A DNA stretch of 64,000 nucleotides from Acidobacteriaceae bacterium. GTDB taxonomy: Bacteria; Acidobacteriota; Terriglobia; Terriglobales; Acidobacteriaceae. Shown here one piece after another: positions 19,564-54,463 of the stretch. The position numbers were made by a program, and so were the translations under genes. The stretch lies in the NCBI GenBank assembly GCA_025356095.1, contig JANXUR010000075.1:1-64000 (forward strand). Reading direction: 5' to 3'. Within the stretch, counting starts at the first letter, position 1. The number at the start of each line of letters is the position of its first letter. The notes under the pieces are model-generated. The model searched no databases. It had not been told where the DNA came from and saw only the letters and a program-made list of their open reading frames with translations.

Positions 19564-19782
19564 CGATTTGCCCGCGTCACATTCTGGCGTTGACCGCGCC
19601 CGCTGCCTCATGAAACAATTTTTATAATGCGCAATGGGGCTCTGGCTGCATCCCGCCCCTCCACTCTTTTCTTGGTTCTTATCTTGGTTCTTATCTTGTG
19701 CCTTGGCAGCACACCTTTGAAATATTTGACTGTAACTCGCGCTACACAGCGGGGCCTGTGCGGTTCCCGTACACCCCGCCGA

Positions 19783-20253: not shown

Positions 20254-20254
20254 G

Positions 20255-20839: not shown

Positions 20840-20926
20840 AGGCGCGGAGCCTGCCATTCCCGCTTGCGGCTTGACGTGCAGTCTCCAATTGACGAAGATT
20901 TAGCCAGTCAGCAGAATCAACCAATC

Positions 20927-22252
20927 ATGAACGTCCGCCCGCCTGCGAACCGAATCCGATCCGGCTGCTTGTCACCCCTGCAGCGGAAACCGCGCGGACG
21001 CCCGCAGGAACGCGGGGTGACGGTTTTGCTGGTGGCTGCGGCGCTGGTCTTCATTATTGCCATGGCGGCTCTGGCCATTGATCTGGGCACCCTTTATGTG
21101 GTGCGCAGCGACATGCAGCGCGCTGCCGACGCCGCCGCTCTCGGCGGTGCCCGAGCTTTCGCCGATTCGGGTGTCACTTCCGGCGCTGCCGCCCTGAGCG
21201 ACGCTCAGGCTCTGGCCGCGCAGTACGCCCAGCTTGTGGTCGCTAGTTCGCCCATTGGAGGCCGCCTGCTCGACCCCGCCAGCGAAGTCGCCATCTCCTT
21301 CCCTGACAATGGCGTCGCTTTAGCCACCAATCCCCACATCCGGGTGGTGTTGCAACGTGCGGATCTGCCGGTCTTTTTTGCCCGCGTCTGGGGTACGCGC
21401 TTTGCCACCGTGAGCGCCACCGCCAATGCGGAGGCTTACAATCCGTCTGGCAACACCATGCCCGTGGCCAGCAGCATCAAGCTTTGGGCCATGCCCAATT
21501 GCGACCCCACACACACCGGCTCCGACCCAGCAGTTTGTCAGGGTTTCGCGCAGTTCGTAGACCCCAATTCGGGTGTAGTCGTGAACCCCGACGTGGTCGG
21601 CAAGACCATCAACTTACAAGAACGCCTCGTCGGGGATGTCGAAGGGCCCGGTGTGTATTTCAACCTCGTCCCATCCTTCGATCCCGACGTCTCGGTCTGC
21701 CCGGCTCTGAACAACGCCCCAACTTGTGCGCCCCCTCAGGGCTACGCCACCTACTATGACGGCATTCAGTGCACCACCAATCAGACCGTCCGCTGTCGCC
21801 AGCCCATCTATGCCGCGCCGCAGCACCGCATCAGCGACATGCAGGGTGCTGCCAGTTGCATGATCCATGCCAATACCCTCGGGGCACGACAAGGGCAAGA
21901 CCTGTTCAATCTGGTACCAGGGGCCACTCCCCCAGTGGCCATCACCGCCGGTTACAACAACCTGAATTCTGCTGTGCGCGGTACCCAAATCGCCAGCAGC
22001 GACTCGGTGATTACCGTACCCCTGTTCGAACCCGGCAATCCCGTCGTCAGCGGCTTTTTGCAGCTCGGCGTCACCCAGATCTGTCCTGCCAACAGCCCCG
22101 ATTGTGGCAGCTTACCCCAGTCTGGCCCCCAGGTCATCGTCCTGAACGTGGCCGGATGTAATGGCACAACAGGGGGATATCCCGTCACTGGGTCGGGTGC
22201 CAGCCCGGTCGCCGTCCGTTTAATCGCAAACTCCACCCCCACTCCGCAGTAA
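20927..22252 (+). CDS. TadG-like protein (putative Flp pilus assembly, TadE/G-type)
   Basis: A 441-aa protein from ATG 20927 (MNVRPPANRIRSG); a TTG 21 codons upstream is possible. After a basic stretch with RGRPQERG comes a membrane helix (VTVLLVAAALVFIIAMAALAIDLG) and the TadG hallmark LYVVRSDMQRAADAAALGGARAFAD. The remaining ~340 residues are exported, with many Cys residues (CDPT, VCQG, VCPALNNAPTC, CTTNQTVRC) that may form disulfides. No von Willebrand domain is obvious. End of a three-gene tadE-tadE-tadG-type unit. Confidence 0.78.
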   Translation: MNVRPPANRIRSGCLSPLQRKPRGRPQERGVTVLLVAAALVFIIAMAALAIDLGTLYVVRSDMQRAADAAALGGARAFADSGVTSGAAALSDAQALAAQYAQLVVASSPIGGRLLDPASEVAISFPDNGVALATNPHIRVVLQRADLPVFFARVWGTRFATVSATANAEAYNPSGNTMPVASSIKLWAMPNCDPTHTGSDPAVCQGFAQFVDPNSGVVVNPDVVGKTINLQERLVGDVEGPGVYFNLVPSFDPDVSVCPALNNAPTCAPPQGYATYYDGIQCTTNQTVRCRQPIYAAPQHRISDMQGAASCMIHANTLGARQGQDLFNLVPGATPPVAITAGYNNLNSAVRGTQIASSDSVITVPLFEPGNPVVSGFLQLGVTQICPANSPDCGSLPQSGPQVIVLNVAGCNGTTGGYPVTGSGASPVAVRLIANSTPTPQ

Positions 22253-22613: not shown

Positions 22614-25600
22614 ATGCGTACATGCAAATCGCTGTTGATTTTCGCAATCTGCGCTCTCTTCGTAACCTCACTGGCCTGGAGTCAGGCTGCGGTGAACGAA
22701 TCGCTGGAAACTGCAACCCTCTGGGTAGATGCCGTCAACGGCAGCGATGCCAATTCGGGCACCCAGAGCAGCCCCCTTCAGACGATTGGTGCCGCCATCA
22801 GCGCCGCTATTTCGAACAACCAAAATTCCATCGGAACCGCAGTCATGGTGCAGCCCGGTACCTACCGCGAGAGTCTGTTTCTAGCCGCGACCTCAAAAGA
22901 CACCAGCCTGCCGATCACCATTCAGGCGGTAACCCCCAGCACGGTCACAGTTTCCGGCGGAATTCAGTCCACAGGCTGGGTGCCCTACGCAGCGAATCCC
23001 GCAATTTACAGCAATGTCTGGACCAATACTTGGGGCCTATGCCAGACGAATGGAGCCGCGCAAGCACCACCCTTCCCCGATATCGTGCTCCGTCGCGAAA
23101 CCGCATTTGTGAACGGCGTTGCCATGACCCAGATGCTGTCGCTGGGGAGTCTGATGCCGGGCACCTTTTTTGTGGACGAAGCGGGCGGCACCATCTACCT
23201 CTACCCACCGGCTGGCGTGAGTCCCACCGCTGCCGACATTGAACTGGGCACCCTGCCCAATCTGGCAAATATCACCCGGCCTCAGGTGGTTCTGAGGGGC
23301 CTGAACTTCCAGTACGCGAACTCCTGCAAAGATGGCTCGGCGATCACCGTGCAAGGTTTGAACACCAACAACATCTTGCTAGACACGCTTTCCATCGCTT
23401 GGAATAACTCCATCGGGCTGAACATCATGAATCCGGCCTCCAATTTTTCCGTCATCAACACCATCGCCAATCACAATGGTCAGGCCGGCATTGGTGCGTA
23501 TCAGGTAAAGAACGGCTTGTGGAGCAACGATACCGCCAGCTACAACAACTGGCGCGGTGCGCAGGGTGCCATCTACAACTGGAATCTCGGGGGATTCCAT
23601 CCCTATCAGGTCCACAGTTCAACCATCAACGGGTTGAATCTATACTACAACCAGACGTATGGAGCCCACTGGGATACCGATCACCGCAATATCACCTCGA
23701 CCTCGATCAACGCGGTAAACAATCTGCTGGTGGGCGACTTTTACGAAAAAAATGAAGGCCCCATCACCATCTCCAACAGTAACTATTGCGGCAACAATCT
23801 GGCCACCACGTCGTTCTCGGCGGCAGGCTCCGGCATGGCGCTCCGCGACACCATGAACCTGACCCTCGACGGCAACTACTACTACAACAATGCCTTCGCC
23901 CAAATCAGCCTCATCGGCACACCCGGCGGCGTCAACTGCACCCCGGTGGCAGGGCCAGAGTGCGTAATTGATTGGGAGACGGGAGTCCCTTACAACCTCA
24001 ACAACCAAAATCTCACTTTCACCAACAATCAGTTCTGGGCGGCCGATGCAACGCAATATGCATTCTCGGATAGCTTGCTGGGCGACGAGAACGGCTTTAG
24101 CGACTGGACCAGCTTCTACACCACCTATGTTGGCAGCGGAAACACATTGTGGAATCCGGCTGCCACCACGGCCTTCCAGATTCCGCCCACTGCGTCGAAT
24201 CCAGCCTCGCAGGCGCTCGACCTTGCGGGCTGGCAGGCTGCCACCGGGCAAGACTCTAACGCAGTATTTGCCCCACCGCCTGCACCGTCCGCTGCCTGTG
24301 CAGCCTCCTTGCCAGCTCAACCGGGCTCGCACCAGTCACTCTCGGCAGTCCCCGCTGATGTCCCCGACTTCTGGTTGATTGCGTCGAATCCTTCCCTTGC
24401 CCTCGACAACACAGGTGCCACCACCAACAGTTTCGCCATTCAACCGGTGGGTAACTTCCCCTCTGACGTCACCGTAACCACTGACGTTTCTGGCGCGCCA
24501 GGCATTACCGCAACCGGTTCGCCGACGACTGTGGCCGGTGGCATCGGTACGGCAAATCTCAGCTACTCCGCCGCGATCGGCACACCAGCAGGCACTTTCC
24601 AGATCCCTGTTATGGCGAGTGGGGGGGGCGTGGTACACACCACCACCTTTTACCTGACCATACCCCCCGGTGGGGCCCGCATCTCCACTTCAAACCTGAG
24701 CTTCCCTACTCAGTTAGCCAACACCACCAGTGCTCCGATGAGCGCCGTGCTCACCAATACGGGTTCAACACCAATCAGCGGCTTCTCGGTTTCCGCGGTA
24801 ACCCTGAGCGGCAACACCGCGATCTTCAGCCAAACCAACGACTGCGGCGCGATGTTGGCAGGTGGCACCAGTTGCACCCTCAACGTCACTTTTTCGCCCA
24901 CCTATGCTGGCTCTTATAGCGGCACTCTTGTCATCAACGATTCCGACCCCTCCAGCCCCCAGAAGGTTTCGCTTACTGGTCAAGGCCAAGCGCTACCGCA
25001 GGTGCACCTCGGCCCATCCAGCCTGTTCTTCGGCAACGCTGACGTCACCACCACTTCATTTCCGCAGACCGCCACCTTCACCAACAACAGCACCACCACC
25101 ATTGCCACCATTGGTAGCGTTGTACCGGGCGGCGATAACGCCAGTGACTTCACCGTCACCAACGACTGCCCTGCCAATCTGTCGCCCGGCACCTTCTGCA
25201 CCTTCACGGCCACGTTCAGTCCCACGGTGGCGGGTTTGCGCACCGCCTCGGTAACCATTTCAGACAACTCCAGTACTGGAACGCACACCTTAAGCCTTCA
25301 GGGGACGGGCGTGGTGCCGGTGCCGTCGGTGAGCCTTGCACCCGGAAATATCGGCTTTGGCAACGTAGATTTGACCGCCAACAGCGCCACCTCTACCGTC
25401 ACTCTCACCAACACCGCCACCGACCCGCTCGCATTGCTGAATCTCAACAGCATCACCATGATTGGTGCCAATCCCGGCGACTTCAACCAGACCAACAACT
25501 GCCCGGCGCAGTTGGGTGCGGGTGCCTCCTGCACCTTTACCCTATGCTTCGCCCCTACCGCCTCCGGATCGCGAGCGGCCACTCTGCAGATCAGCGACAA

Positions 25601-27665
25601 CACCAACAATGGAACCCACGCCGTTTCGCTCACTGGTACTGGCGTGGTTCCGGTTCCCATTGCTACCCTGACTCCCACCAGCCTGCCCTTCGGCACGGTG
25701 GACGTAACACTTTCTAGTGCGCCTTTGGTCGCGACCCTCTCCAACATTGCAACCGATCCGCTGGCGGTGCTCAGTATCAGCAACATCACGCTTAACGGCG
25801 CGAACCCCGGAGACTATAACTACACCACCACCTGTGGAGCGACGCTAGCCATTAACAGCTCCTGCACTTTCAGCATCGTCTTCAAGCCCACGACGTTCGG
25901 CGCTCGGCCCGCAACCCTCCAGGTCACGGACAACACTACCTCTGGACTGCATAGCGTGTCGTTGACCGGCACTGGTTTCATCCCCGTGCCAACCGCCACG
26001 CTTTCGCCCAGCACGTTCAGCTTCGGCAATGTGGACGTCACACTCTCGAGCGCGGTGATGGTTACCACGCTCACCAACACCGCCACCGATCCCGTGGCAG
26101 TGCTTAACATCAGCGGGATTACGCTCACGGGCGCCAATCCCGGCGACTACGTGCAAACCAACACCTGCGGAGTTACGCTAGCCGCGAGTGCCTCTTGTAC
26201 GATCTCGGTCACCTTCAAGCCCACGGCATCGGGTGCCCGCCCCGCCACGTTGCAGGTCAACAGCAATACATCCTCCGGCGTCAATAACCTTACCCTGAAT
26301 GGAACTGGTCTGGTTCCGGTACCCACGGTCACCTTGGTACCGGGCACGCTCAACTTCGGCAACATAGATGTCACCCTCTCCAGTCCGGTAATGACGGCGA
26401 CGCTGACCAACACCGCAACCGACGCGCTGGCCGTGCTGAACCTCAGCAACGTCGCACTTACGGGCGCTAACCCAGGCGACTATACCTACACCACGACTTG
26501 CGGGGCCACGCTGGCGATCAATGCGACGTGCACCTTCACCGTCAATTTCAAACCGACGCTGGCAGGTACGCGCTCGGCAACCCTGCAGTTCACGGACAAC
26601 ACTACGGCGGCATCCCATAGCGTTTCGCTCACCGGCACCGGAGTCAGCCCAACGCCCATCGCTAAGCTCTCATCCACCTCGCTTGCTTTCGGCAATCTGA
26701 ATGACGGCCTAACCAGCACCAAAACGGTGACGCTTACCAATAGCTCAGCCGATCCGCTGGCGCTGATGTTCCTCACCAGCATCAGTAAGTCCACTGACAC
26801 CGATAACGGTGAATACACGGTGACCGACAACTGCCCGCGCTCGCCCAGCACTTTGGCTGCGGGCGGTGTCTGCACCATCACCGTCGTATTCGCACCCACC
26901 AACCTTAACGCCACTTCCGTCACTGTGACCATCACCGATAACGCCAGTCCGGCCACCCAGACGATTACCCTGACCGGCACCGGTACCCAACCCGTACCGA
27001 CCGCTTCCCTCACTCCCGCAACCTTGGCATTTGCCAGCTTGAATGAGGGCCTTACCTCCACCAAAACATCAGTGCTCAAGAATACTTCCACCAATAGCTA
27101 CGCCACCTTGAGCATCACCTCGATCGTCACCACCGGCACGGACGCGGCTGAATACACGGTGACGCACAACTGTCCGCTTGCTCCCAACACACTGGCGGCA
27201 GGTGCCTCTTGCACCATCACCTCGGTGTTCGCGCCGGTGAATCTGGACGTGACCAGCGTGACGGTGAAGATCACCGACAACATCACTGCGGGCTTCCAAA
27301 ACCTGACGATGACTGGCACCGGCACCGTGCCCAAAGCCACAGTCACTTTTCTGCCCGCAGCGCTCACATTCGCGTCCACCAAAGTGGGAGTAACGAGTGC
27401 AGCCCAAAACGCAACGTTAACCAACACCAGCACCAACCCTCTTGCCACACTCGCCATTACCAACTTCACCCTCACTGGCAATAACCCCGGTGATTTCGCC
27501 TCTAACAGCAGCGCCTGCCCCAGCACACTCGCGCCAGGTGCCAGTTGCATCGTCAGCGTAACCTTCACTCCAATCGCCAAAGGCACCCGAAAAGGCAACC
27601 TCAACGCCAACGACAACGGATCCACCACCAAACAGACGATTGCGTTGACCGGCACCGGTTCCTAG
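22614..27665 (+). CDS. Secreted right-handed beta-helix protein with nine ASH repeats (paralogue A)
   Basis: A 1683-aa protein. Signal peptide MRTCKSLLIFAICALFVTSLAWSQ, then a DUF1565-type opening (WVDAVNGSDANSGT, PLQTIGAAISAA, VQPGTYRES) and a parallel beta-helix to about residue 560. Inside it is the family core NNWRGAQGA ... YNQTYGAHWDTD (His352 region). The boundary motif PDFWLI is near 582. Nine Ig-like choice-of-anchor-D/ASH repeats of ~105 residues follow, each with a first strand ending in FGN-like and a Cys pair of the form C-P-x-L-x-x-G-x-S-C-T. It ends at LTGTGS with no anchor or sorting signal. Probably cell-surface or released; the helix suggests a carbohydrate ligand or substrate. 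Own terminator downstream. Confidence 0.88.
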   Translation: MRTCKSLLIFAICALFVTSLAWSQAAVNESLETATLWVDAVNGSDANSGTQSSPLQTIGAAISAAISNNQNSIGTAVMVQPGTYRESLFLAATSKDTSLPITIQAVTPSTVTVSGGIQSTGWVPYAANPAIYSNVWTNTWGLCQTNGAAQAPPFPDIVLRRETAFVNGVAMTQMLSLGSLMPGTFFVDEAGGTIYLYPPAGVSPTAADIELGTLPNLANITRPQVVLRGLNFQYANSCKDGSAITVQGLNTNNILLDTLSIAWNNSIGLNIMNPASNFSVINTIANHNGQAGIGAYQVKNGLWSNDTASYNNWRGAQGAIYNWNLGGFHPYQVHSSTINGLNLYYNQTYGAHWDTDHRNITSTSINAVNNLLVGDFYEKNEGPITISNSNYCGNNLATTSFSAAGSGMALRDTMNLTLDGNYYYNNAFAQISLIGTPGGVNCTPVAGPECVIDWETGVPYNLNNQNLTFTNNQFWAADATQYAFSDSLLGDENGFSDWTSFYTTYVGSGNTLWNPAATTAFQIPPTASNPASQALDLAGWQAATGQDSNAVFAPPPAPSAACAASLPAQPGSHQSLSAVPADVPDFWLIASNPSLALDNTGATTNSFAIQPVGNFPSDVTVTTDVSGAPGITATGSPTTVAGGIGTANLSYSAAIGTPAGTFQIPVMASGGGVVHTTTFYLTIPPGGARISTSNLSFPTQLANTTSAPMSAVLTNTGSTPISGFSVSAVTLSGNTAIFSQTNDCGAMLAGGTSCTLNVTFSPTYAGSYSGTLVINDSDPSSPQKVSLTGQGQALPQVHLGPSSLFFGNADVTTTSFPQTATFTNNSTTTIATIGSVVPGGDNASDFTVTNDCPANLSPGTFCTFTATFSPTVAGLRTASVTISDNSSTGTHTLSLQGTGVVPVPSVSLAPGNIGFGNVDLTANSATSTVTLTNTATDPLALLNLNSITMIGANPGDFNQTNNCPAQLGAGASCTFTLCFAPTASGSRAATLQISDNTNNGTHAVSLTGTGVVPVPIATLTPTSLPFGTVDVTLSSAPLVATLSNIATDPLAVLSISNITLNGANPGDYNYTTTCGATLAINSSCTFSIVFKPTTFGARPATLQVTDNTTSGLHSVSLTGTGFIPVPTATLSPSTFSFGNVDVTLSSAVMVTTLTNTATDPVAVLNISGITLTGANPGDYVQTNTCGVTLAASASCTISVTFKPTASGARPATLQVNSNTSSGVNNLTLNGTGLVPVPTVTLVPGTLNFGNIDVTLSSPVMTATLTNTATDALAVLNLSNVALTGANPGDYTYTTTCGATLAINATCTFTVNFKPTLAGTRSATLQFTDNTTAASHSVSLTGTGVSPTPIAKLSSTSLAFGNLNDGLTSTKTVTLTNSSADPLALMFLTSISKSTDTDNGEYTVTDNCPRSPSTLAAGGVCTITVVFAPTNLNATSVTVTITDNASPATQTITLTGTGTQPVPTASLTPATLAFASLNEGLTSTKTSVLKNTSTNSYATLSITSIVTTGTDAAEYTVTHNCPLAPNTLAAGASCTITSVFAPVNLDVTSVTVKITDNITAGFQNLTMTGTGTVPKATVTFLPAALTFASTKVGVTSAAQNATLTNTSTNPLATLAITNFTLTGNNPGDFASNSSACPSTLAPGASCIVSVTFTPIAKGTRKGNLNANDNGSTTKQTIALTGTGS

Positions 27666-27692
27666 CGCACACAGCGGAATCCGGCCCTCCCG

Positions 27693-27743
27693 CCGGGAAT
27701 AATGCCTCATTCATGGGGCATTGTTCCCGGTTTTCTTGTTTTT
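27693..27743 (+). terminator. Terminator after paralogue A
   Basis: Arms CCGGGAA (27693-27699) and TTCCCGG (27724-27730) extend inward with AATGCC/GGGCATT, followed by TTTTCTTGTTTTT. A classic intrinsic terminator. Confidence 0.85.
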
Positions 27744-28205
27744 GGGAGATACTGCCGCGCCATGTGCGATGGCCCAGAGCCCCTTATTGCACGGGGCGCG
27801 ACGGGTGCAACTCATCGCCCGCGCCCGCCTCTGAACCGGCCCTACATGGAACCAGCAGGGATGACGGGGGTAACCCTGTATTGACTTTTCACTTTACATA
27901 AGCCAGCCATGCCGTTATAAAGTCAGTAGACCAAAAATAAGCAAGGGATTGCACCTCTACTGGCCTCCACCCCTCATAAGGGGTGAGAAACCGAGGAATA
28001 TCCTGTTTCAAAGGGTTCGTCAGTACAAAACAGAAACCCACTGAAGCACGCGTCACAGCGGACTGTGCTGAGCCACCGGCACACCCTTTGTCAAAGTTTG
28101 CGCCAAATTTCTACTGGGCGCGAAGCTTTTGCATTCTCGACTGGCCGAAGTTCTGGCGTTTCATCTCGGGATAAAAAATCGAGTCGCTGCAAGGTGGAGT
28201 TCTGA
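27744..28205. other. Intergenic leader of paralogue B
   Basis: No convincing gene. It has a hairpin CACCCCT-CATA-AGGGGTG (about 27969-27986), a TTGACT near 27881 followed by AT-rich sequence that may be promoter, and GGTGGAG as ribosome site about 5 nt before the ATG at 28206. Short frames here lack coding character. Confidence 0.4.
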
Positions 28206-31200
28206 ATGAAGTCGTTGGTTTGCAAGATCGTATTCGGCTGTGCACTCGCAGGGGTGATGCATGGGCAGTTGTTGGCTCAGGCCGTCGTCAATGAGGGTTT
28301 AGAAACCACTACCCTGTACGTGGATGCGGTTGCCGGGAATGACAACAATCCGGGCACACAAGCGCTGCCCTTCCAGACCATCGGAACCGGGCTGGGTGCT
28401 GCGATCTCCAACAATCAAGCTGGCATCGGCACGCAGGTGATCGTGAACCCGGGCACTTACCGGGAAGTTTTGAGTGCCAGCCAAACCGCGCGCGACACCT
28501 CCCTCCCCATTACTCTCCAGGCTGCCACCCCCGGTACAGTACTGATATCAGGTGGGCAACTGTACACCAACTGGACCAGCTATTCCGGCAACCCTTCTAT
28601 CTACACCACTGCATGGACAAACAACTGGGGGCTCTGCGTACCGAATCCCGGGGGCCCCCCACTCACTGACATCGTGTTACGCCGCGAGATGGTACTGGTG
28701 AATGGTGCACCCATGACGCAAGTGCTCGCGTTGAGTCAGGTGCAGTTTCCCGGTATGTTTTTTGTGGATGAAACAGCTGGAACTCTTTATATCTGGCCCC
28801 CTGCCGGGGTGAACCCAACCACCGCCACGGTAGACGTGGCCACACAACCCACCCTGCTGGCTGTCAACAGCCGCGACAATATCGTGTTTCGGGGGCTTAC
28901 CTTCCAGTACGCCAACAGTTGCCGCGATAACGGGTCGGTCACTGTCGCGGGCACCGTAACCAACGTCATTTTCGACAACGACACGTTCCTGTGGAACAAC
29001 TCGCTAGGCTTGCAAATTTCCGCCCCCACCGTCAACTTCACGGTGGAGAACTCCTCTGCCCTGCACAATGGCGAATCCGGCTTCCAGATCTCGCAAACCA
29101 ATTTCGGGCTCTGGCAGAACGACGTTTCAAACTACAACAACTGGCGCGGCGCGCTGGGCGCTTACTACGCGTGGAATTCCGGCGGCTACCACTTCTACCT
29201 CGCCCACAATGACACCCTGAACAACATCACTGTCGCTTACAACCAGACCCACGGGATTCATTGGGATACCGACCAGTACAACATCACTGCCACCGGGTTG
29301 CATTCGTTCTCCAACGCGCTCAACGGACTGATGGTGGAAGCCAGCGAAGGGCCTGTCACCATCTCCAACAGCACGTCTTGCAATAACGATGTCGCTGTGC
29401 ACGATAGCTACAACTTTCAGGGTGGACTGCTGCTGCGCAATTCTACGAATGTCACTTTGACGGGCAGCACGCTCTATGGCAACTTCGCCGACCAGATCAA
29501 CCTGCAAGGCAACAAAGGCGGCTTGACCGAGACCAACTGGGAAACTGGCGAAGTTTACAACCTGATTACCAGCAACATCACCCTGACGGGCAACGTGATT
29601 GACGCTTTGGACGGCACGCAGGGCGTGTTTAGCGACAGCTACCTGACCGATGGCGACTGGACGCCGTTCGTCACCACGCTGGTTTCCAACTCGAACCTCT
29701 GGTGGAACCCGGCCGACACCGCGTCGTTCGTTGTGCCGACGCCGGTGCAGAGCTCGAAGGACAACTTTGCCGCTTGGCAAGCACTTACCGGGCAAGATGG
29801 TAATTCCACGTGGGCTCAGCCTGCCGATCCCACCGCAGCTTGCAATGTGCCCGCCGAAGCGCCAGATTTCTGGCTCATCTCTTCTACCGACACGCCCTCG
29901 ATCGCTGTGGACGGAACCGCGACCATCACCGCCAGCGTTGCACCCATTGGCGGGATGACGGGCACCGTCAATCTGGCAGTGAACACTTCAGCCGTTCCCG
30001 GACTCACGGCCACGGTTTCCCCCAGCAGCCTTACTCTGGATGGCAAGACTACAGCCACCGCGACCATCACGTACACGGCGAGCACGGCTCTCGCGGCCGC
30101 CACGTATCAGATTCCAGCATTCGCCAATATGGGCAGCGTAACTCGCGCCAGCACGGTGCTTCTCACCGTTCCCGCCACCAGTGTGCGTATCTCCACTAGC
30201 AGTCTGGCCTTCGGGTCGCAAACCATCGGTACCAGCAGCGCGTCGCAGTCACTGACGCTCACCAACATCGGCACCACCACGCTGACCATCACCAGCATCG
30301 GTTCAGGCAGCAACTTTACCCAGACCAATACCTGCGGCAGCAGCGTCAAAGCGGGCGCGAGCTGTACCATTAGCGTCACGTTTGCGCCGGCTCAAGCCAA
30401 CAGCATCATTGGTGGGCTCACTATTACCGATAGCGACACCACCAGCAGCCCGCAAAGCGTGAGCCTGACTGGTACCGGTATCGCCCGCCCCACGGTTACG
30501 CTGACCCCGAACAAGTTGTCGAACGGCACCATCGCGGTGGGGGCCAGCCTCAGCCAATCGGCAACCCTGACCAATAGTTCCACCGGCACCTCGGTGCTCG
30601 CGATCAGCTCAATCGTCATCACTGGTACTAACCCGTTGGATTACAGCCAGACCAATGACTGCGGCAGTCTGCTCGCGGCGGGTGCCACTTGCACGATTAC
30701 GGTGACATTCGCCCCGCAAACAACAGGCTCGTTGCCCGCGACCTTGACTGTGACAGAAAACTCCAATGGCGGTTCCCACAGTGTGACCCTCACGGGCACG
30801 GGTGCGACCGCGGCAGCCGCGAGCTACAGTCCGGCTTCGCTCAGCTTTGCCAACACCACGATAGGCTCTACGGCGACCAGCCAGACCATCACAGTCACCA
30901 ACACCAGCACCACCACCACGTTAACTCTGAACTCGGTCGTTCTGAGTGGAACCAGCCCCGGCGACTTTACCCTGACCGACGGTTGCGGCGGCACCCTGAA
31001 AGCCAACCGCACCTGCACCTTTACTGTTGCCTTCAAACCCACAGCAGCGGGTGTGCGCACGGCCACCATCACGGTCAACGATTCCGCCATACCAGCCACC
31101 CAAACCATCAATCTGACCGGAACGGGCGTGGAAGCCGTACCTCTGGTGGCGGTGGCTCCCGGCTCACTGAGCTTTGGTACCGTTACCACCGGCTCCACCT

Positions 31201-33083
31201 CTGCGGGGCAAACTTTTACCGTCACCAACGCTTCGATTGAGGCTGCGCTCGCCATCACCAGCGTTACGCTTTCCGGCAGCAATCCCGGCGACTTTGCCCA
31301 GACCAACAACTGCCCGGCCTCGTTGGCCGCAGGCGCGAGCTGTACCGTGACTGCCACGTTTACACCGAGCGCGGCGAATGCACGCAGCGCCAATGTGGTG
31401 GTGAATGACAATTCCTCGCCTGCCAGCCAAACCGTAACGCTTTCCGGGACAGGTTCTAGAAGCGCACCCACGGTCACGCTGACTCCGGCGACCTTGACGT
31501 TCCCCAGCACCAACATTGGCAGTTCCAGCACCAGCCAGACGGCCACGCTCAAGAACACCAGTGCCGCAGTACAACTCATCGTAAGCAGCATCGCCCTTGG
31601 CGGCACCAATGGCAGCGATTACACGTTGACCAATAATTGCCCTGCGAGTCTAGGGACGGGAGTAAGTTGTACCCTGACCGCGACGTTTATTCCAACCGCC
31701 GCCGGAACACGTACCGCCACCGTTACAGTGACCGACAACGCCACCGGCAAGACGCAGACGGTGACCCTCACCGGCACGGGCAACAGCCCGACGCCTACCG
31801 TCACCGTGTCGCCAGCTTCGCTCACCTTCGCGGCGACAGCCGTTGGCTCCAGCAGCCTGAGCCAGCAGGTAACCATTAAGAACACCAGCGCTTCCACCGC
31901 GCTGACTATCACATCCATCGCGCTGAGTGGAACCAATAAATCGGACTACTCTTTGAGCAATGGCTGCGGCACCTCGCTGGCCGCAGGGGCAAGCTGCACC
32001 GCCACGCTGACGTTTCTACCCACAGCCAGCGGCACTCGCACCGCCACCCTCACCGTGACAGACAACGCCAACCCGGCCACCCAGACCGTAAGCCTGACTG
32101 GCACAGCAGCCGTCCCCACGGTATCGGTAACCCCTGCTTCGTTGAGCCTTGGCAACGTCATGGTAGGCAGTACCTCGGCGAGCCAGTCGGTGACGATCCA
32201 AAACACCAGCGCGGCTGTTTCGCTGAGCATCACGAGCCTGCTGCTGAGTGGCACCAATGCTAGCGACTATGCTGTCTCGAATGGTTGCGGCTCCAGCTTG
32301 GCGGCCGGTGCCAGTTGTACGGCAACCGTCACCTTCACCCCCACAGTTGCCGCGGCGCGCACAGCGACGCTTACCCTCACCGACAATGCCAGCCCTGCCA
32401 CGCAAACGGTAAGCCTGAGCGGTACTGGGACCGCAATTCCCACGGTCACCCTTTCACCTTCCACCCTGGCATTCGGCAATCTAGGGGTCGGCTCCACCAG
32501 CACGGCGAAGACTGCGACCTTGACCAACACCAGTACCACCGCCGCCTTAACCGTCACCAGTATTGCGCTGGGCGGTGCCAACGCAGGCGACTTTACCGTC
32601 ACCAACACCTGCGGCACATCCCTGGCGGCTGGCGCCAGTTGTACACTGACGGCCACCTTCAAACCAACCGTGATTGGATCTCGCACCGCTACCATCACCA
32701 TCACCGACAACGCCTCGCCGACCACTCAAACGGTTAGCCTCACCGGAACGGGCACTGCGCCGGTGCCTACGGTCACGGTGACGCCGACCACGCTGCACTT
32801 TGGCAAGCTCAAGGTCGGCAGTACCCTGCTAAAGACCGTCACCGTAACCAACACCAGCACCAATGCCAGCGCGGTGCTGAACTTCACCTCAGTGAAGATT
32901 TCCAGCGGCTTGGCATTCGTGCAGACCAATACCTGCACGGCACCGCTGAACGCTGGCCAGAGTTGCACGATCACGGTGACATTCCTTCCGACGGTCACGG
33001 GACTGGTTTCCTCCTCCGTCACCATCACAGACAATGCCTCGCCCAAAACCCAAAAAGTCACGCTGAACGGCACGGGCACCTAG
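28206..33083 (+). CDS. Secreted right-handed beta-helix protein with nine ASH repeats (paralogue B)
   Basis: A 1625-aa paralogue of the upstream gene. Signal peptide MKSLVCKIVFGCALAGVMHGQLLAQ; opening AVVNEGLETTTLYVDAVAGND; helix core NNWRGALGAYYAWN and YNQTHGIHWDTD near residue 352; boundary APDFWLI at about 554. Nine ASH repeats follow. They are more alike to each other than to those of copy A, and carry VGSTSxSQ in place of VDVTLSS, so the repeats have been homogenised within each gene. Cys pairs are kept (NGCGTSLAAGASCTATLTF type). Ends KVTLNGTGT. The bias to A/S/T/G with hardly any charge is typical of extracellular stalks. Confidence 0.88.
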   Translation: MKSLVCKIVFGCALAGVMHGQLLAQAVVNEGLETTTLYVDAVAGNDNNPGTQALPFQTIGTGLGAAISNNQAGIGTQVIVNPGTYREVLSASQTARDTSLPITLQAATPGTVLISGGQLYTNWTSYSGNPSIYTTAWTNNWGLCVPNPGGPPLTDIVLRREMVLVNGAPMTQVLALSQVQFPGMFFVDETAGTLYIWPPAGVNPTTATVDVATQPTLLAVNSRDNIVFRGLTFQYANSCRDNGSVTVAGTVTNVIFDNDTFLWNNSLGLQISAPTVNFTVENSSALHNGESGFQISQTNFGLWQNDVSNYNNWRGALGAYYAWNSGGYHFYLAHNDTLNNITVAYNQTHGIHWDTDQYNITATGLHSFSNALNGLMVEASEGPVTISNSTSCNNDVAVHDSYNFQGGLLLRNSTNVTLTGSTLYGNFADQINLQGNKGGLTETNWETGEVYNLITSNITLTGNVIDALDGTQGVFSDSYLTDGDWTPFVTTLVSNSNLWWNPADTASFVVPTPVQSSKDNFAAWQALTGQDGNSTWAQPADPTAACNVPAEAPDFWLISSTDTPSIAVDGTATITASVAPIGGMTGTVNLAVNTSAVPGLTATVSPSSLTLDGKTTATATITYTASTALAAATYQIPAFANMGSVTRASTVLLTVPATSVRISTSSLAFGSQTIGTSSASQSLTLTNIGTTTLTITSIGSGSNFTQTNTCGSSVKAGASCTISVTFAPAQANSIIGGLTITDSDTTSSPQSVSLTGTGIARPTVTLTPNKLSNGTIAVGASLSQSATLTNSSTGTSVLAISSIVITGTNPLDYSQTNDCGSLLAAGATCTITVTFAPQTTGSLPATLTVTENSNGGSHSVTLTGTGATAAAASYSPASLSFANTTIGSTATSQTITVTNTSTTTTLTLNSVVLSGTSPGDFTLTDGCGGTLKANRTCTFTVAFKPTAAGVRTATITVNDSAIPATQTINLTGTGVEAVPLVAVAPGSLSFGTVTTGSTSAGQTFTVTNASIEAALAITSVTLSGSNPGDFAQTNNCPASLAAGASCTVTATFTPSAANARSANVVVNDNSSPASQTVTLSGTGSRSAPTVTLTPATLTFPSTNIGSSSTSQTATLKNTSAAVQLIVSSIALGGTNGSDYTLTNNCPASLGTGVSCTLTATFIPTAAGTRTATVTVTDNATGKTQTVTLTGTGNSPTPTVTVSPASLTFAATAVGSSSLSQQVTIKNTSASTALTITSIALSGTNKSDYSLSNGCGTSLAAGASCTATLTFLPTASGTRTATLTVTDNANPATQTVSLTGTAAVPTVSVTPASLSLGNVMVGSTSASQSVTIQNTSAAVSLSITSLLLSGTNASDYAVSNGCGSSLAAGASCTATVTFTPTVAAARTATLTLTDNASPATQTVSLSGTGTAIPTVTLSPSTLAFGNLGVGSTSTAKTATLTNTSTTAALTVTSIALGGANAGDFTVTNTCGTSLAAGASCTLTATFKPTVIGSRTATITITDNASPTTQTVSLTGTGTAPVPTVTVTPTTLHFGKLKVGSTLLKTVTVTNTSTNASAVLNFTSVKISSGLAFVQTNTCTAPLNAGQSCTITVTFLPTVTGLVSSSVTITDNASPKTQKVTLNGTGT

Positions 33084-33108
33084 CGTAGTCGCGTATTGTG
33101 CGAGCCAC

Positions 33109-33135
33109 AGGGGGACGCTGAATCAGCGTCCCCCT
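33109..33135 (+). terminator. Terminator after paralogue B
   Basis: AGGGGGACGCTG (33109-33120), loop AAT, CAGCGTCCCCCT (33124-33135): a perfect 12-bp GC-rich stem, followed by CGCTGTTTTCC. Confidence 0.8.
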
Positions 33136-33413
33136 CGCTGTTTTCCACGACCTCGCGTGGACAGCAATCGTCTATCGTTTCCCCGACGTACCATTACCTA
33201 AGGACACCTCCCCGCAGGCCAACCGGCATATTTCGCCTTTGTCCAAGTAGCGGTATAAAGGTTCCAGTAGCAACTGAGTCCTCCACCCGCACTGAGGATT
33301 TAGTCCCCCCCGAAGAGTAATTCCCCGACAGTTCCACACGCGTCGCAAGCGCTGGCCTTAGCGTCAGCAAAAATTCAAAACGCCATGCATATCTGCATCG
33401 TGAGAGGTGTTTT
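33136..33413. other. Intergenic leader of paralogue C
   Basis: No gene seen. Contains GACTGAGTCC-like and CACTGAGG segments that could pair, and ATGCAT-ATC-TGCAT near the end. Ribosome site GAGAGG lies 7 nt ahead of the ATG at 33414. Confidence 0.35.
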
Positions 33414-35993
33414 ATGAGAAGACTGAGTCGGGTGTCCGCCATCGCATTCCTAGTCGCCGCTGCATCCCTTCTGGCTTTCGGCCAGGCGACCGTAAACGAG
33501 AGTCTCGAAACTGCCACGTTGTACGTGGACGCAAATTCCGGCAACGATAATGCCGCAGGTACTGCCTCGCAGCCACTCAAAACGATCTCCGCCGCGCTCT
33601 CTACCGCTGCCTCCAACAATCGCAGCGGCATTGGCACCAACGTGATCGTAAACCCGGGTCTGTATCGTGAGAGCATCAGCATCGGCAACAGCACCCGCGA
33701 CACCGCCTCGCCGATTACCGTGCAGGCTGCAACACCCGGTACAGCTGTGGTAACTGGCGCGGTACAGTACACAGGCTGGCAAACCTATTCCGGCAACCCC
33801 TCGCTCTACACCGTTTATTGGCCCAACTCGTGGGGCTTTTGCCCGGCGAGCGTGGGCGGCCCTACACCACAGCCGATTGTGATGCGGCAAGAAATGATCT
33901 TCGTCAATGGCACTCCGCTGACGCAAGTGCTGTCGCTGGCGCAGATGGTCTATCCCGGCAGCTTCTTTGTGGATGAGAGCCATGCCGCCGTCTATATCTG
34001 GCCGCCCTCGGGCACCAAGATGGCGACCGCCGACGTAGAGGTAGCTACCCTGCCAACGCTGTTGAGCGTCTCTGGCCACGACAACATGGTCTTCCGCGGA
34101 TTGACTTTTGAATACGCGAATACTTGCCGCGACAGCGCAGCCGCCGTTATTTACAGCACGTCGTACAACGTTTTACTCGATCAGATCAATTTTGTTTGGA
34201 ACAACGCCGCGGGCCTGCAAATCACCAATCCGGTGGTTAACTTTACAGTGCAGAATTCGGTGGCCAACCACAACGGCCAATCGGGCTTGAAGGGTACGAT
34301 GACGAAATCAGGCCTGTGGCAGAACAACACAGCCAGCTTTAACAACTGGCGAGGAGCGCAGGGAGCATATTATGTCTGGAACACTGCAGGGGCGCACTTC
34401 TTTGAATCCCACAACGACACCGTGAACGGGCTGACGTTGGCCTACAACCAAACCCACGGTGTGCATTGGGATACCGACAATGCCAACATCACAGTGACCG
34501 GCCTCAAGAGTGTGCAGAACCTTGCCAACGGCATTATGGTGGAAGTGAGTCAGGGGCCAGTAAGCATTGACAGTAGCTATGCCTGCAACAACGACCCTGC
34601 ACCGCACGACAGCAGCGCTTATCAGGGCGGACTGCTGCTACGGAACTCGCAGAATGTGAGCTTCACCAACAGCACGCTTTACAACAACGGCACCGCGCAG
34701 GTAGATATGCAGGGCCAGGCTGGGGGCATCGCCGGAGTGGATTGGGAAACTGGTGCTAGCTACAACCTGGTGACGCAGAATCTGAACCTGAGCCAGAACG
34801 TTATCTACGGCACAGGCGCACAGCCGGTATTCAGCAACAGCGTCCTGGGCGGCGCGGACTGGAGCACCTTCCAAACCACGCTCCTTGCCAGCAAGAATAC
34901 CTACTACAACGCCACCACACCCAAAGCGTTCATCGTGCCAAGTCCCGTAAACGCCACCACAGACGGCTTTAGTGACTGGCAGGGTGTCACGGGGCAGGAT
35001 CTGAGCTCTAGCTGGGCAAAGCCTGCAGACCCAACCACAGCCTGCACCGTAGCCGCCGATGCGCCGGATTACTGGCTGATCGCAGGCACAGGACAAAGCA
35101 CGATCTCGCAAATCGGGGGCGCAACCTCTAACTTCTATCTAGTCCCCATCGGAGGCTTCAGTGGCACCGTCAACTTCGCGGTGGATGCGTCACAGGCACC
35201 CGGCATTAGCGCCACGCTTTCCAGCCCGTCTGCGTCCGGGTCAGCGACCGAAACCGTTACCTTTGCGGCCAGCACCAGCGTCGTTCCGGGCACCTATCCG
35301 GTAACCCTGATCGGCAACAACGGCAACACCAGCCGCGCCGTCACCATCAACGTGGTGGTACCGCAGACTGGCATCCGCCTCTCCACTGGCTCACTTGCCT
35401 TCAGCTCTCAAGTGGTGGGCAGTGTGAGCAGCAGACAGAATTTCACCGTCACCAACATTGGCACCACGGCCATCACGTTTTCGGCGATCGCCACTGGCTC
35501 TAGCTTCGGCGCAACTAGCAACTGCTCCACGTTGGCCGCAGGGGCATCTTGCACCGTGACCGTTACCTTCAGCCCACTGTCGGGTAAGTCCTTCTCCAGT
35601 CAGGTCATCCTTACGGATAGCGACGCGACTGTCACCCAAAGCGTTTCAGTCACTGGCACCGGGCTGGCCCGGCCTTCGATCACTCTCTCACCCGGCACGT
35701 TGAGCTTTGGCTCCAACAAGGTGGGCACCAAGAGCGTGGTGAAGACTACAACTCTCACCAATACCAGCACCACGTCGTCGCTGAACATCAGTAGCCTCGC
35801 GCTGACCGGCAGCTACCCCGGCGACTACACCCAAACCAACACCTGCGGCGCGAGCCTTGCGCCGGGAGCCAACTGCTCCTTCAGCGTCACCTTTACGGCG
35901 GGCGCCAAGGGCAGCCGGAATGCAACGATCACCATCTACGAAAATACTTCCGTCGGCAAGCACAGCGTCACGTTGACCGGCAGCGGTTCGTAG
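33414..35993 (+). CDS. Secreted right-handed beta-helix protein with two ASH repeats (paralogue C)
   Basis: An 859-aa paralogue with the same N-terminal plan: signal peptide MRRLSRVSAIAFLVAAASLLAFG, QATVNESLETATLYVDANSGND, helix core FNNWRGAQGAYYVWN and THGVHWDTDNANIT (His near residue 350), boundary APDYWLI at about 549. Only two ASH repeats remain (STGSLAFSSQVVGS and SPGTLSFGSNKVGT), each with the Cys pair. The helix is conserved at full length, so the number of stalk repeats is what varies in this family. Closest in the helix to paralogue D. Function of the helix is unknown; polysaccharide binding, epimerisation or lyase activity are the usual options. Confidence 0.87.
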   Translation: MRRLSRVSAIAFLVAAASLLAFGQATVNESLETATLYVDANSGNDNAAGTASQPLKTISAALSTAASNNRSGIGTNVIVNPGLYRESISIGNSTRDTASPITVQAATPGTAVVTGAVQYTGWQTYSGNPSLYTVYWPNSWGFCPASVGGPTPQPIVMRQEMIFVNGTPLTQVLSLAQMVYPGSFFVDESHAAVYIWPPSGTKMATADVEVATLPTLLSVSGHDNMVFRGLTFEYANTCRDSAAAVIYSTSYNVLLDQINFVWNNAAGLQITNPVVNFTVQNSVANHNGQSGLKGTMTKSGLWQNNTASFNNWRGAQGAYYVWNTAGAHFFESHNDTVNGLTLAYNQTHGVHWDTDNANITVTGLKSVQNLANGIMVEVSQGPVSIDSSYACNNDPAPHDSSAYQGGLLLRNSQNVSFTNSTLYNNGTAQVDMQGQAGGIAGVDWETGASYNLVTQNLNLSQNVIYGTGAQPVFSNSVLGGADWSTFQTTLLASKNTYYNATTPKAFIVPSPVNATTDGFSDWQGVTGQDLSSSWAKPADPTTACTVAADAPDYWLIAGTGQSTISQIGGATSNFYLVPIGGFSGTVNFAVDASQAPGISATLSSPSASGSATETVTFAASTSVVPGTYPVTLIGNNGNTSRAVTINVVVPQTGIRLSTGSLAFSSQVVGSVSSRQNFTVTNIGTTAITFSAIATGSSFGATSNCSTLAAGASCTVTVTFSPLSGKSFSSQVILTDSDATVTQSVSVTGTGLARPSITLSPGTLSFGSNKVGTKSVVKTTTLTNTSTTSSLNISSLALTGSYPGDYTQTNTCGASLAPGANCSFSVTFTAGAKGSRNATITIYENTSVGKHSVTLTGSGS

Positions 35994-36023
35994 AAGACTT
36001 CCGGCAGCCTCCGCATACGGTTG

Positions 36024-36057
36024 AGGGTCTCTTTTCAAGTAGTTGAAAAAAGACCCT
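36024..36057 (+). terminator. Hairpin terminator after paralogue C
   Basis: A 15-bp stem with one mismatch, AGGGTCTCTTTTCAA (36024-36038), loop GTAG, TTGAAAAAAGACCCT (36043-36057), then TTACC. It is the only A/T-rich stem among the four terminators of this block. Confidence 0.7.
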
Positions 36058-36375
36058 TTACCTTGTCCACATCTCGAAACACTGCAATCCATACCGCCTC
36101 TGAAATCACCTTTTCCTTCTTTCGGTTCCGCAGCCCTTGCGCAAAATGTATCTGATTCGCTAACAAGGAACCTGAATAGTTACTAGACCGTTAGTACACC
36201 CAGCAACGAAAATTCAATGGTTTCAATGATTTACATTGACTAGACCTTCCACGGAAGGTGTGGCAATTTCTCCGTTTTCCACAGGCGGGCAGGCGCCGTT
36301 GCAGGTCGCCGATTCACTCGGTTCGTGGTGTGTCAACTTCTGGGGTAGTTAGCTTCGCAAAGCAAGGGTGAACTG
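36058..36375. other. Intergenic leader of paralogue D
   Basis: No gene seen. Holds CCTTCC-AC-GGAAGG (36247-36260) and GGCGCC-containing GC-rich sequence downstream. TTGACT at about 36236 may be a -35 box. Ribosome site AAGGGTG lies 6 nt before the ATG at 36376. I did not find the conserved core of a c-di-GMP-I riboswitch. Confidence 0.35.
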
Positions 36376-39192
36376 ATGAACAATTGGAAACGGTTTCTCT
36401 CGTATATGGCTATAGGTGTGGGACTTAGCACTTTTGCGTTCAGCCAAGCCACTGTAAATGAAGCGGCAGAAACTGCGATTGTTTACGTGGACGCGGTGAA
36501 CGGCAGCGACGTGAATCCGGGCACCCAGAGCCAGCCATTGGCCTCAATTAACGCGGGCGTGAATCTGGCCGTAGCCAACAATGTGCAGGGAGTGGGTACC
36601 CTCGTCCTTATCAACCCGGGCTTGTATCGGGAATCGTTGATTTTGAGCCAAACACAGCGGCAGACCAGTGCGCCCATCACTGTCCAAGCAGCCACACCCG
36701 GCACAGTAGCGATCAGCGGTGCGCTGCAATATACCGGATGGGTGGCGGCGGGCTCTGGAATCTTTACTAATTCTTGGACAAACAGTTGGGGAAATTGCGC
36801 GCAGAAGCGCAGCGCACCGCCAGCACAGCAAATTGTGCTGCGCCGCGAGATGGTGTTTGTCAACGGTGTCCCGATGACGCAGGTGCTGGCTCAGGCCGAC
36901 CTCGCTCCGGGCACGTTCATGGTGGATGAAACCGCCAACATCGTCTCCGTCTGGCCGCAGAGCGGCGCAGACTTGACCACAGCCGATGTGGAAGTTGCGA
37001 CCCTGCCCAGTTTGCTGCAAGTGCTTGGCATGGACAATATCGTCTTCCGCGGACTGACATTTGAATATGCCAACAGTTGCCTCGATAACGCCGCTGTACT
37101 GGTACAGGGCAGCGCCACCAATGTGATTTTCGACAACGACCAATTCGTCTGGAACAACGCTCTTGGCTTCCGGATTCTCTATCCAGCCACCTACTTCACG
37201 GTGCAGAATTCATCAGCGTTGCACAACGGGCAGTCGGGATTGCAAGGCACACAAACCAAGTATGGTCTGTGGCAGAATGATGCTGCCAACTACAACAACT
37301 GGCGCGGCGCCCAAGGTGCCTACTACTCTTGGAACACCAGCGGTGCCCACTTCTACGAAGTCCACAACGACACCATTGATGGCCTCACTCTGGCCTATAA
37401 CCAAACCCACGGTGTTCATTGGGACACCGACAACAGCAACGTTACCGTGGCTGGGCTGACCAGCGTAAACAACCTGCAAATTGGAGCATTCGTGGAGGCC
37501 AACGAGGGCCCGCTGAGCTTTGATAACTCCTACGTATGCGGTAATGGTGCGGCCTCTATGGCGGCTACCTCTTCCTTGGGCGGCCTGCAACTGCGCAACT
37601 CGCAGTTTGTGACGGTCACCAACAGCGCCATCTACAGCAACAATCCCAACCAGATTAACGTGCAGGGCAAGAAGCTTGGCGTGTGGGTGCAAAACTGGGA
37701 GACCGGACAGCGCACACAGGTGGTCACCAGCAACATCACCATGAACAACAACGTGATCTATGGCGTGGGCAAGCAGTTCCTGTTCAATGACAGCTATCTG
37801 GTGGATCCAGACTGGACGACGTTCGCCAGTTCGCTGACCTCAAACCAAAACACCTGGTGGAATCCCGTTGCCACGAAAGTGTTTAAGGTGGCATCGCCCA
37901 GCGCTGGCACACTAGACGACTTCCCCGCATGGCAGGGTGTAACCGGGCAAGACGTTGCATCGGTTTTCTCCACCGCACCCGACGAGACAACCCCCTGTTC
38001 TGTAACCGCAGATGGTCAGGATTTCTGGTTGATTACCGGCAGCACGGCAGCCAACACGGCCACCACCGGGTACGCTACGATTGCCTTGAGCGTTTCGCCA
38101 GTGGGAGGCTTTGGCAACACAGTGAATCTAACGGCTGATAGCGGCAACAGCCTGATGACAGTGGCATTCGACAACGCGGCGATCGCCGGTTCAGGCACAG
38201 CGAATATGACGGTGACGGCCGATCCTAGCCTCGGCGAAGGAACCTACCCGGTCGTGGTGATCGCCAACAGTGGCGACCTGACGCATACGGTTACGATTCC
38301 CGTAACGGTTTCACGGAGTTCGCTGACACTTTCCACTTCTACGCTCACCTTTGCCGACACTTCCATCGGCAACACGAGTTCGTTGCAGAGCTTCAACATC
38401 ACCAACAACAGTCAATCAGCCATCACGCTGAATAGCATCACGCCATCGCCGGACTACGTGATCAGCAACCTTTGCGGCTCCACCTTAGGGGCGGGCGGAA
38501 CTTGTCGCGCCTACGTCGGATTCAACCCGACGCACGTGGGCACCGACAACGGTACGGTCACCATCCTCTCATCGGACGCTGGCAGTCCCCACATTTTGAC
38601 CACCCTGGGTAACGGGATTGGTATTCCGGGCGTGGATGTACGACCGGGCAGCCTGTACGTGGGCGAAATGCCACTGGGCGTGCAAAGCGCGGCGCAGAAC
38701 ATCACCGTTCGCAACACCAGCGGCAATGGAGCCAGCCTGTTTATCGGCAACGTGACGTTGACCGGAGCCAATCCGGGCGACTTTCTGGAGACATCGGGCT
38801 GCCCTCCGGCACTTTCGCCGGGAGCCTCCTGCACCATTCAGGTCGCCTTCAAGCCCACGGCCCACGGCACTCGCAATGCTACGCTCACCATCTGGGACAA
38901 CGCCGTGCGCGGCCTGCAAGCCATTCCGCTGACCGGCAACACCCGCAGGGATGGCGGTGTGCCAGCGGCACCAACGAGTACGCAGGCCCATGCGGTGGTC
39001 GCGGGTTCGGCATCGGCTCGGGTAAAGACTTCACCCAGCGCCTGGCACGCTGCCGCCCACTCCACCCACCCCGTCCACCCCGTCCACCCTGTCAACCCTG
39101 TCAACCCGACCCACCATACCCGCAGGGGCCATGCGCATCGCCATAAGCACTACGCGCATCGGCACAAGACGACACGGCACCACGCAGGCTAA
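36376..39192 (+). CDS. Secreted right-handed beta-helix protein with two ASH repeats and His-rich tail (paralogue D)
   Basis: A 938-aa paralogue: signal peptide MNNWKRFLSYMAIGVGLSTFAFS, QATVNEAAETAIVYVDAVNGSD, helix core YNNWRGAQGAYYSWN and THGVHWDTDNSNVT (His near 348), boundary QDFWLI near 546, two ASH repeats (STSTLTFADTSIGN and RPGSLYVGEMPLG). Unlike the others it continues about 80 residues past the last repeat: an Ala/Ser linker, a HPVHPVHPVNPVNP run encoded by 9-nt repeats, and a terminal RRGHAHRHKHYAHRHK-type segment. The tail is strongly basic and could bind metal, anionic polysaccharide or the cell surface. A perfect hairpin terminator follows. Confidence 0.87.
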   Translation: MNNWKRFLSYMAIGVGLSTFAFSQATVNEAAETAIVYVDAVNGSDVNPGTQSQPLASINAGVNLAVANNVQGVGTLVLINPGLYRESLILSQTQRQTSAPITVQAATPGTVAISGALQYTGWVAAGSGIFTNSWTNSWGNCAQKRSAPPAQQIVLRREMVFVNGVPMTQVLAQADLAPGTFMVDETANIVSVWPQSGADLTTADVEVATLPSLLQVLGMDNIVFRGLTFEYANSCLDNAAVLVQGSATNVIFDNDQFVWNNALGFRILYPATYFTVQNSSALHNGQSGLQGTQTKYGLWQNDAANYNNWRGAQGAYYSWNTSGAHFYEVHNDTIDGLTLAYNQTHGVHWDTDNSNVTVAGLTSVNNLQIGAFVEANEGPLSFDNSYVCGNGAASMAATSSLGGLQLRNSQFVTVTNSAIYSNNPNQINVQGKKLGVWVQNWETGQRTQVVTSNITMNNNVIYGVGKQFLFNDSYLVDPDWTTFASSLTSNQNTWWNPVATKVFKVASPSAGTLDDFPAWQGVTGQDVASVFSTAPDETTPCSVTADGQDFWLITGSTAANTATTGYATIALSVSPVGGFGNTVNLTADSGNSLMTVAFDNAAIAGSGTANMTVTADPSLGEGTYPVVVIANSGDLTHTVTIPVTVSRSSLTLSTSTLTFADTSIGNTSSLQSFNITNNSQSAITLNSITPSPDYVISNLCGSTLGAGGTCRAYVGFNPTHVGTDNGTVTILSSDAGSPHILTTLGNGIGIPGVDVRPGSLYVGEMPLGVQSAAQNITVRNTSGNGASLFIGNVTLTGANPGDFLETSGCPPALSPGASCTIQVAFKPTAHGTRNATLTIWDNAVRGLQAIPLTGNTRRDGGVPAAPTSTQAHAVVAGSASARVKTSPSAWHAAAHSTHPVHPVHPVNPVNPTHHTRRGHAHRHKHYAHRHKTTRHHAG

Positions 39193-54430: not shown

Positions 54431-54463
54431 CCGTGTTCATTTCCTTGGAGTAGACCTAAGACT

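Follow-up and report, generated by a model that had tools for sequence, protein, structure and literature searches.

The four neighbouring proteins described here, P0001 to P0004, are probably secreted and active retaining glycoside hydrolases that belong to an uncharacterised family distantly related to family GH120. Their genes lie in the first 64,000 nucleotides of contig JANXUR010000075.1 of an Acidobacteriaceae bacterium, and we refer to this whole stretch as the window. The first-pass annotation had described four beta-helix/ASH paralogues, and the four same-strand open reading frames were confirmed at the positions given for them on the forward strand (Table 1). The parts that it had listed, i.e. 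a signal-like N-terminus (judged by eye), a helix, a PDFWLI-like motif and an ASH stalk, are found in all four proteins. After the hydrophobic N-terminus, which by eye ends near AQA or SQA in each protein and is suggestive of secretion, the chain continues with some 530 residues of helix, then a D(F/Y)WLI motif and finally the ASH repeats. The 82-residue tail of P0004 (HPVHPVHPV..., HAHRHKHYAHRHK) is absent from the other 29 proteins compared; this tail of His, Arg and Lys residues might bind metals or polyanions.

Table 1. Positions in the window of the four genes, their predicted domains and the terminator-like hairpins.
Feature	Position	Strand	Basis
Gene 1 (P0001), 1683 aa: signal-like N-terminus, head, Ig-like linker, 9 ASH/choice-of-anchor-D repeats	22614..27665	+	
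Gene 1 beta-helix head, residues 25-583, boundaries approximate	22686..24362	+	homology to P0003 model
Gene 1 conserved segment NNWRGA...HWDTD, residues 311-356	23544..23681	+	
Gene 1 Asp354, aligned with XylC nucleophile Asp382	23673..23675	+	
Gene 1 Glu378, aligned with XylC acid/base Glu405	23745..23747	+	
Gene 1 Ig-like linker from PDFWLI, residues 584-681	24363..24656	+	homology to P0003 model strands 554-649
Gene 1 stalk, 9 ASH repeats, residues 682-1682	24657..27659	+	
Terminator-like hairpin after gene 1, 18 pairs, T-rich tail	27692..27731	+	
Gene 2 (P0002), 1625 aa, 9 ASH repeats	28206..33083	+	
Gene 2 beta-helix head, boundaries approximate	28284..29861	+	
Gene 2 conserved segment, residues 311-356	29136..29273	+	
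Gene 2 Asp354, candidate nucleophile	29265..29267	+	
Gene 2 Glu378, candidate acid/base	29337..29339	+	
Gene 2 Ig-like linker domain	29862..30164	+	homology to P0003 model
Gene 2 stalk, 9 ASH repeats, residues 654-1624	30165..33077	+	
Terminator-like hairpin after gene 2, 12 pairs	33109..33135	+	
Gene 3 (P0003), 859 aa, 2 ASH repeats; protein used for modelling	33414..35993	+	
Gene 3 beta-helix head, residues 25-550	33486..35063	+	AlphaFold2 pLDDT 87, pTM 0.87
Gene 3 conserved segment, residues 310-355	34341..34478	+	
Gene 3 Asp353, candidate nucleophile, 25/25 in clade	34470..34472	+	
Gene 3 Glu377, candidate acid/base, 25/25 in clade	34542..34544	+	
Gene 3 Ig-like linker, residues 551-647	35064..35354	+	nine strands, blocks mostly pLDDT 70-87
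Gene 3 stalk, 2 ASH repeats	35355..35987	+	
Gene 4 (P0004), 938 aa, 2 ASH repeats and His-rich basic tail	36376..39192	+	
Gene 4 beta-helix head, boundaries approximate	36448..38016	+	
Gene 4 conserved segment, residues 307-352	37294..37431	+	
Gene 4 Asp350, candidate nucleophile	37423..37425	+	
Gene 4 Glu374, candidate acid/base	37495..37497	+	
Gene 4 Ig-like linker domain	38017..38304	+	homology to P0003 model
Gene 4 stalk, 2 ASH repeats, residues 644-856	38305..38943	+	
Gene 4 C-terminal tail rich in His, Arg and Lys, residues 857-938	38944..39189	+	

The segment from NNWRGA to HWDTD had been called almost identical in all four proteins. It is indeed more conserved than the rest, with pairwise identities of 60-81% over residues 300-356 of P0001, as opposed to 48-59% in the preceding part of the protein, 39-53% in the following one and 36-53% among the ASH repeats. 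The densest 46-column stretch in the four window proteins has 25 invariant columns, a value matched in 69 of 5000 column shuffles. The conservation is graded, however, and weaker in the 25 members of the family clade, where the best stretch of 47 columns is no longer unusual (matched by 734 of 5000 shuffles) and the best one of 30 columns lies elsewhere, at 29-58 (2845 of 5000 shuffles). Twelve residues in or just past the segment are invariant in all 25 clade members, namely Asn310, Trp312, Gly314, Tyr320, Asn345, Asp353, Thr354, Asp355, Asn369, Glu377, Gly381 and Pro382 in the numbering of P0003. The His of HWDTD is kept in 21 of the 25, and the candidate catalytic Glu is located outside the segment that had been pointed out, 24 residues after the first D of HWDTD.

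Structure prediction, which had been proposed as a check, was run on the P0003 head and gave a confident right-handed parallel beta-helix, i.e. the core fold of GH120 (AlphaFold2 with 15 homologues, pLDDT 87, pTM 0.87). The 15-homologue alignment was drawn from 13 loci and leaves out L016, whose gene starts in another frame, and the fragment L021; L016 is back in the 54-homologue count and the tree described below. Foldseek ranks the GH120 beta-xylosidase XylC first for the head model (E 2.5e-16), followed by BT_1002 and the AlgE epimerases. BT_1002 (PDB 5mqp, Foldseek E 8.7e-14), which we take to be a GH141 enzyme, also has a shared N-terminal start in the profile search (E 1.8e-11), where its alignment is reliable for the N-terminal part only and stops short of the catalytic region. 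VIA-align superposes XylC on 450 residues at 2.7 A (Z 27.9), the longest among the 50 matches listed, but places AlgE4 first by Z (36.5 over 329 residues), which counts against a GH120-like reading. As the two methods put different proteins at the top, the fold alone is not decisive for function; GH136, GH110, PL6, Pel9A and other beta-helix families match at the fold level as well. According to the DSSP listing of the model, Asp353 ends the strand 348-353 and Glu377 ends the strand 374-377, one coil apart; the two strands take corresponding places in successive rungs.

More specific evidence comes from three alignments in which the first Asp of HWDTD and the nearby Glu fall on the catalytic pair of XylC. 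In a profile search of the PDB with the 15-homologue alignment, XylC (3vst) was the best match (E 1.1e-22) and the two acids were placed on Asp382 and Glu405, residue numbers that we checked and that are both found in the third aligned stretch. When the same alignment was compared by hhalign with three bona fide GH120 sequences (L070, L069 and L083), the match had a probability of 99.4% and an E value of 3.1e-21, again pairing Asp with Asp and Glu with Glu, and in a MAFFT alignment the Asp and Glu of the family share columns with the GH120 catalytic pair. One of the three, L070, comes from the same family of genomes; its sequence, which matches XylC at E 4.5e-146, marks it as a genuine GH120. 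When the query was reduced to the four window rows, hhalign matched just the N-terminal third, so the alignment of the catalytic pair depends on the wider family. The passage of PMC8954004 that deals with these residues names Asp382 as the nucleophile and Glu405 as the acid/base of XylC, and reports that activity was lost in alanine mutants of the equivalent residues in three GH120 enzymes.

Both acids are present in all 25 members of the family clade and in 48 of 54 distinct homologues, including proteins from Actinomycetota, Bacteroidota, Rhodothermota and Verrucomicrobiota, although the latter count leans towards conservation since the profiles used for gathering homologues include the D and E columns. 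The 54 were counted after open frames below 60 bits and duplicates of one protein had been dropped; the exceptions are L081 (D/S), L078 (S/N), three proteins without coverage of the site and one that is cut before the Glu. The position of both acids on the XylC pair, together with the lack of conservation at the AlgE residues (see below), argues for the active site of a retaining glycosidase and not for that of a lyase or epimerase. Judged from these alignments, the conserved segment is most likely part of such an active site. Of the roles first suggested for the segment, an active site fits best, while the enzyme classes that were suggested along with it are not supported.

Three other explanations were considered. 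The proteins could be carbohydrate-binding surface proteins derived from GH120, in which the sugar site was kept, cleavage was lost and the ASH stalks present the site as an adhesin. Long repeat stalks of variable copy number are typical of adhesins, and the window proteins carry such stalks; in addition, there are no sugar-use genes nearby and Glu353 of XylC is not kept. However, binding alone would not obviously require the two acids that are retained in 25/25 clade members and 48/54 homologues overall, and ASH repeats are missing altogether from several members; we consider this explanation unlikely. It is far less probable that the proteins are polysaccharide lyases or mannuronan C5-epimerases, as had been suggested at first. 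The AlgE mannuronan C5-epimerases (2pyg, 5lw3) have the beta-helix core in common with the window family, and AlgE4 and AlgE6 combine the top VIA Z of 36.5 with profile E values of 5e-10 and 3e-9; XylC is nevertheless better by profile and by Foldseek, and over more residues. The catalytic residues speak against this reading: the passage of PMC7385640 on the active site of AlgE4 names Tyr149, Asp152, His154 and Asp178, all of which fall on non-conserved positions of the window family in the profile alignment, and AlgE4 and AlgE6 have Gln and Lys where the family has its invariant Asp and Glu (residues counted by hand). We rejected the lyase/epimerase reading on these grounds. A structural or surface-layer protein without a sugar site, whose conserved residues are buried determinants of the fold, would account for the many invariant Gly, Asn and Cys residues, typical of beta-helix turns and ladders, and for a segment that is not unusually dense in 25 sequences, but it is hardly credible given that two invariant acids at strand edges fall, in each of three alignments, on residues of established catalytic function.

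The repeat counts of 9, 9, 2 and 2 given by the first-pass annotation were reproduced by an iterated HMM and by the NCBIfam model NF012200 (choice_anch_D), the sole NCBIfam model above cut-off in the four proteins, which scores 462, 577, 106 and 104 bits for P0001 to P0004 against a curated cut-off of 45. All stalk repeats are ordinary members of the choice-of-anchor D/ASH type (NF012200, PF15780); inspection by eye of the window proteins revealed no recognisable C-terminal anchor after them, and a literature search for 'choice-of-anchor D' or 'ASPM-SPD-2-Hydin' together with acidobacteria gave no result among the papers searched. The number of repeats varies beyond the window too, from 0 to 11 among the Acidobacteriota members (a count that includes G010d, which is cut by a contig end), and several members are devoid of them. 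The simplest reading is that the ASH stalk is an optional spacer.

An extra Ig-like domain, previously overlooked, is situated between the helix and the repeats. In a second model of P0003, which is weak overall (pLDDT 68, pTM 0.48) and poorer than the first in its helix part, residues 554-649 form an Ig-like sandwich of nine strands. PDFWLI is the first strand of this sandwich in the model, and we no longer regard it as a special boundary motif. The repeats had also been described as homogenised within each gene. There is a slight within-gene excess of 4.5 points over all repeats (within minus between genes; reached in 0 of 2000 shuffles, maximum 3.2), but strong homogenisation is not supported, as the mean repeat identity is 43% within P0001 vs 42% to P0002, and 49% within P0002 vs 42%. 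Only blocks stand out, i.e. repeats 3-6 of P0001 at 55-68%; repeats 7 and 8 of P0001 are closest to repeats 7 and 8 of a gene on contig C52 (65% and 61%, respectively), and first repeats resemble first repeats across genes. Block duplications (P0001 repeats 3-6 and 7-8) and positional likeness between genes describe the repeats better than homogenisation does.

Other arrangements occur among the relatives. The protein at 2038-7821 of L013 has the reversed order, with six ASH repeats first and the helix last, and by eye a lipobox-like FSGC near its N-terminus that would tether the stalk to the membrane. In L014 (5758-8184, Rhodothermia) and L015 (4261-6501, Bacteroidetes) a C-terminus that by eye resembles a type IX secretion sorting domain replaces the ASH stalk, and in L014 another helix gene is found at frame 3926.

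Eight copies of the gene are present in this genome: four in the window, two on contig C52 and a single one on each of C115 and C90. At E 1e-20 the family is found in six of 100 genomes, among them the present one. A wider profile has matches in 32 of 297 members of the phylum at 1e-10; apart from the present genome these are at the family level only in G006 and G010, the others being remote. Named homologues were found in Acidobacteria, Rhodothermia, Bacteroidetes, Verrucomicrobia, Actinomadura and Nocardioides. A quick IQ-TREE of 55 rows places the eight paralogues in one clade (support 96) that splits into P0002, P0003, P0004 and the C115 gene on one side and P0001, the two C52 genes and the C90 gene on the other. 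P0001 pairs with a C52 gene (support 99) and P0003 with the C115 gene (92), i.e. with genes on other contigs, so the tree does not support a recent four-fold tandem duplication as the origin of the four neighbours. GH120 proper is a clade of its own in this tree (support 100) and the window family another (98). A search for a true GH120 in the genome of the window found none, the matches being the window family itself. Six other beta-helix proteins of the phylum (L057, L059, L066, L067, L068 and L075) fall together with GH120 proper in the tree (support 99) and retain both acids, which makes them further GH120-like candidates.

No sugar-use operon was seen around the four genes, which counts against the glycosidase reading, and by eye no operon is common to the neighbourhoods of the relatives; GH43 and GH10 domains gave one partial match each, which is too little for naming a substrate. 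Tad-type pilus-like genes lie upstream, with TadE, TadE and TadG-like genes (Pfam PF07811, PF13400) at 19627-22252 directly before the four genes, and a TPR kinase, a hemerythrin and an M20 peptidase follow downstream. The terminator-like hairpins after genes 1 and 2 (Table 1) suggest separate transcripts; they were judged by stem length, the region having 12 hairpins where 17.5 were expected. A shared upstream element was rejected, as none of the four upstream stretches, each searched internally, contains repeats of at least 14 bases and the identity between the stretches is only scattered. An Rfam search gave no match except a tRNA. Further along, a TPR-CHAT protein (49403-53134) is followed at 53174-57125 by two ORFs of 418 and 824 aa that look secreted and have no Pfam match at 0.001; the second has a run of TDK repeats after a signal-like N-terminus.

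What the computations themselves show is the fold, the homology to GH120, that the two acids are conserved and aligned with the GH120 pair, the order of the domains and the variation in repeat number; catalysis, retention, the part played by each acid, secretion and the role of the stalk are inferred. We propose that the head is a beta-helix with an additional module between its first coils, of the type present in GH120, in which the first Asp of HWDTD (Asp353 in P0003) would act as the nucleophile and Glu377, on the next coil at the same edge of the helix, as the acid/base. The NNWRG loop and a Trp-Asn pair, at the place of His352-Glu353 in XylC, probably shape a pocket for a sugar beyond, or other than, xylose, and the Ig-like linker with 0-11 ASH modules would serve as an optional and expandable spacer. 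We give about even weight to a broader view: a new extracellular retaining-glycosidase family that is a sister group of GH120 without belonging to it and has NNWRG and DTD motifs as its hallmarks, expanded to eight copies in one acidobacterial genome and mounted on an Ig spacer of 0-11 units, with paralogues perhaps differing in glycan or in distance from the attachment point. If this is true, proteins that would be named in databases only after their repeats (NF012200) gain a named catalytic pair, and catalysis of the GH120 kind would extend to a set of secreted enzymes with several paralogues, whose relatives occur in Acidobacteriota, Bacteroidota, Rhodothermota, Verrucomicrobiota and Actinomycetota. 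The homologues with 0 to 11 stalk units would then be a natural series for the effect of stalk length.

It is useful to compare the window family with its closest characterised counterpart, XylC, the GH120 beta-xylosidase of Thermoanaerobacterium saccharolyticum (PDB 3vst/3vsu/3vsv), which is the best PDB match both by profile and by Foldseek. Both have a beta-helix, in the window family with a candidate inserted module, and their Asp and Glu residues stand in shared alignment columns. The description of the GH120 fold in PMC6887791 has an Ig-like beta-sandwich interrupting the beta-helix core, and the stretch VNG...FFVDE...VEVAT of the window family is aligned by hhalign, i.e. in sequence and not in coordinates, to this insert. 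The low identity, the separate clade and the replacement of Glu353 weigh against the GH120-like reading. The window proteins are 16-20% identical to XylC and 17-22% to two other GH120 sequences, whereas XylC and L070, both within GH120, are 50% identical. His352 of XylC, which the relevant passage of PMC6887791 places in the active site and for which another GH120 enzyme has Trp, corresponds to Trp, Cys or Phe in the window family (16, 6 and 3 of 25, respectively), and Glu353 is replaced by Asn in 17, Gly in 4, Asp in 2, Ala in 1 and Ser in 1 of the 25. NNWRG is present in the window family and not in GH120 in the hhalign alignment, and the window proteins add a signal-like N-terminus, an Ig-like linker and an ASH stalk to what is found in XylC. 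With identities of 16-22% and a clade of its own, the window family does not group with the characterised GH120 enzymes and is not GH120 itself. The proteins are best described as ordinary repeat modules that carry a probable extracellular glycosidase related to GH120, like that family in the predicted catalytic pair and yet not filed as GH120.
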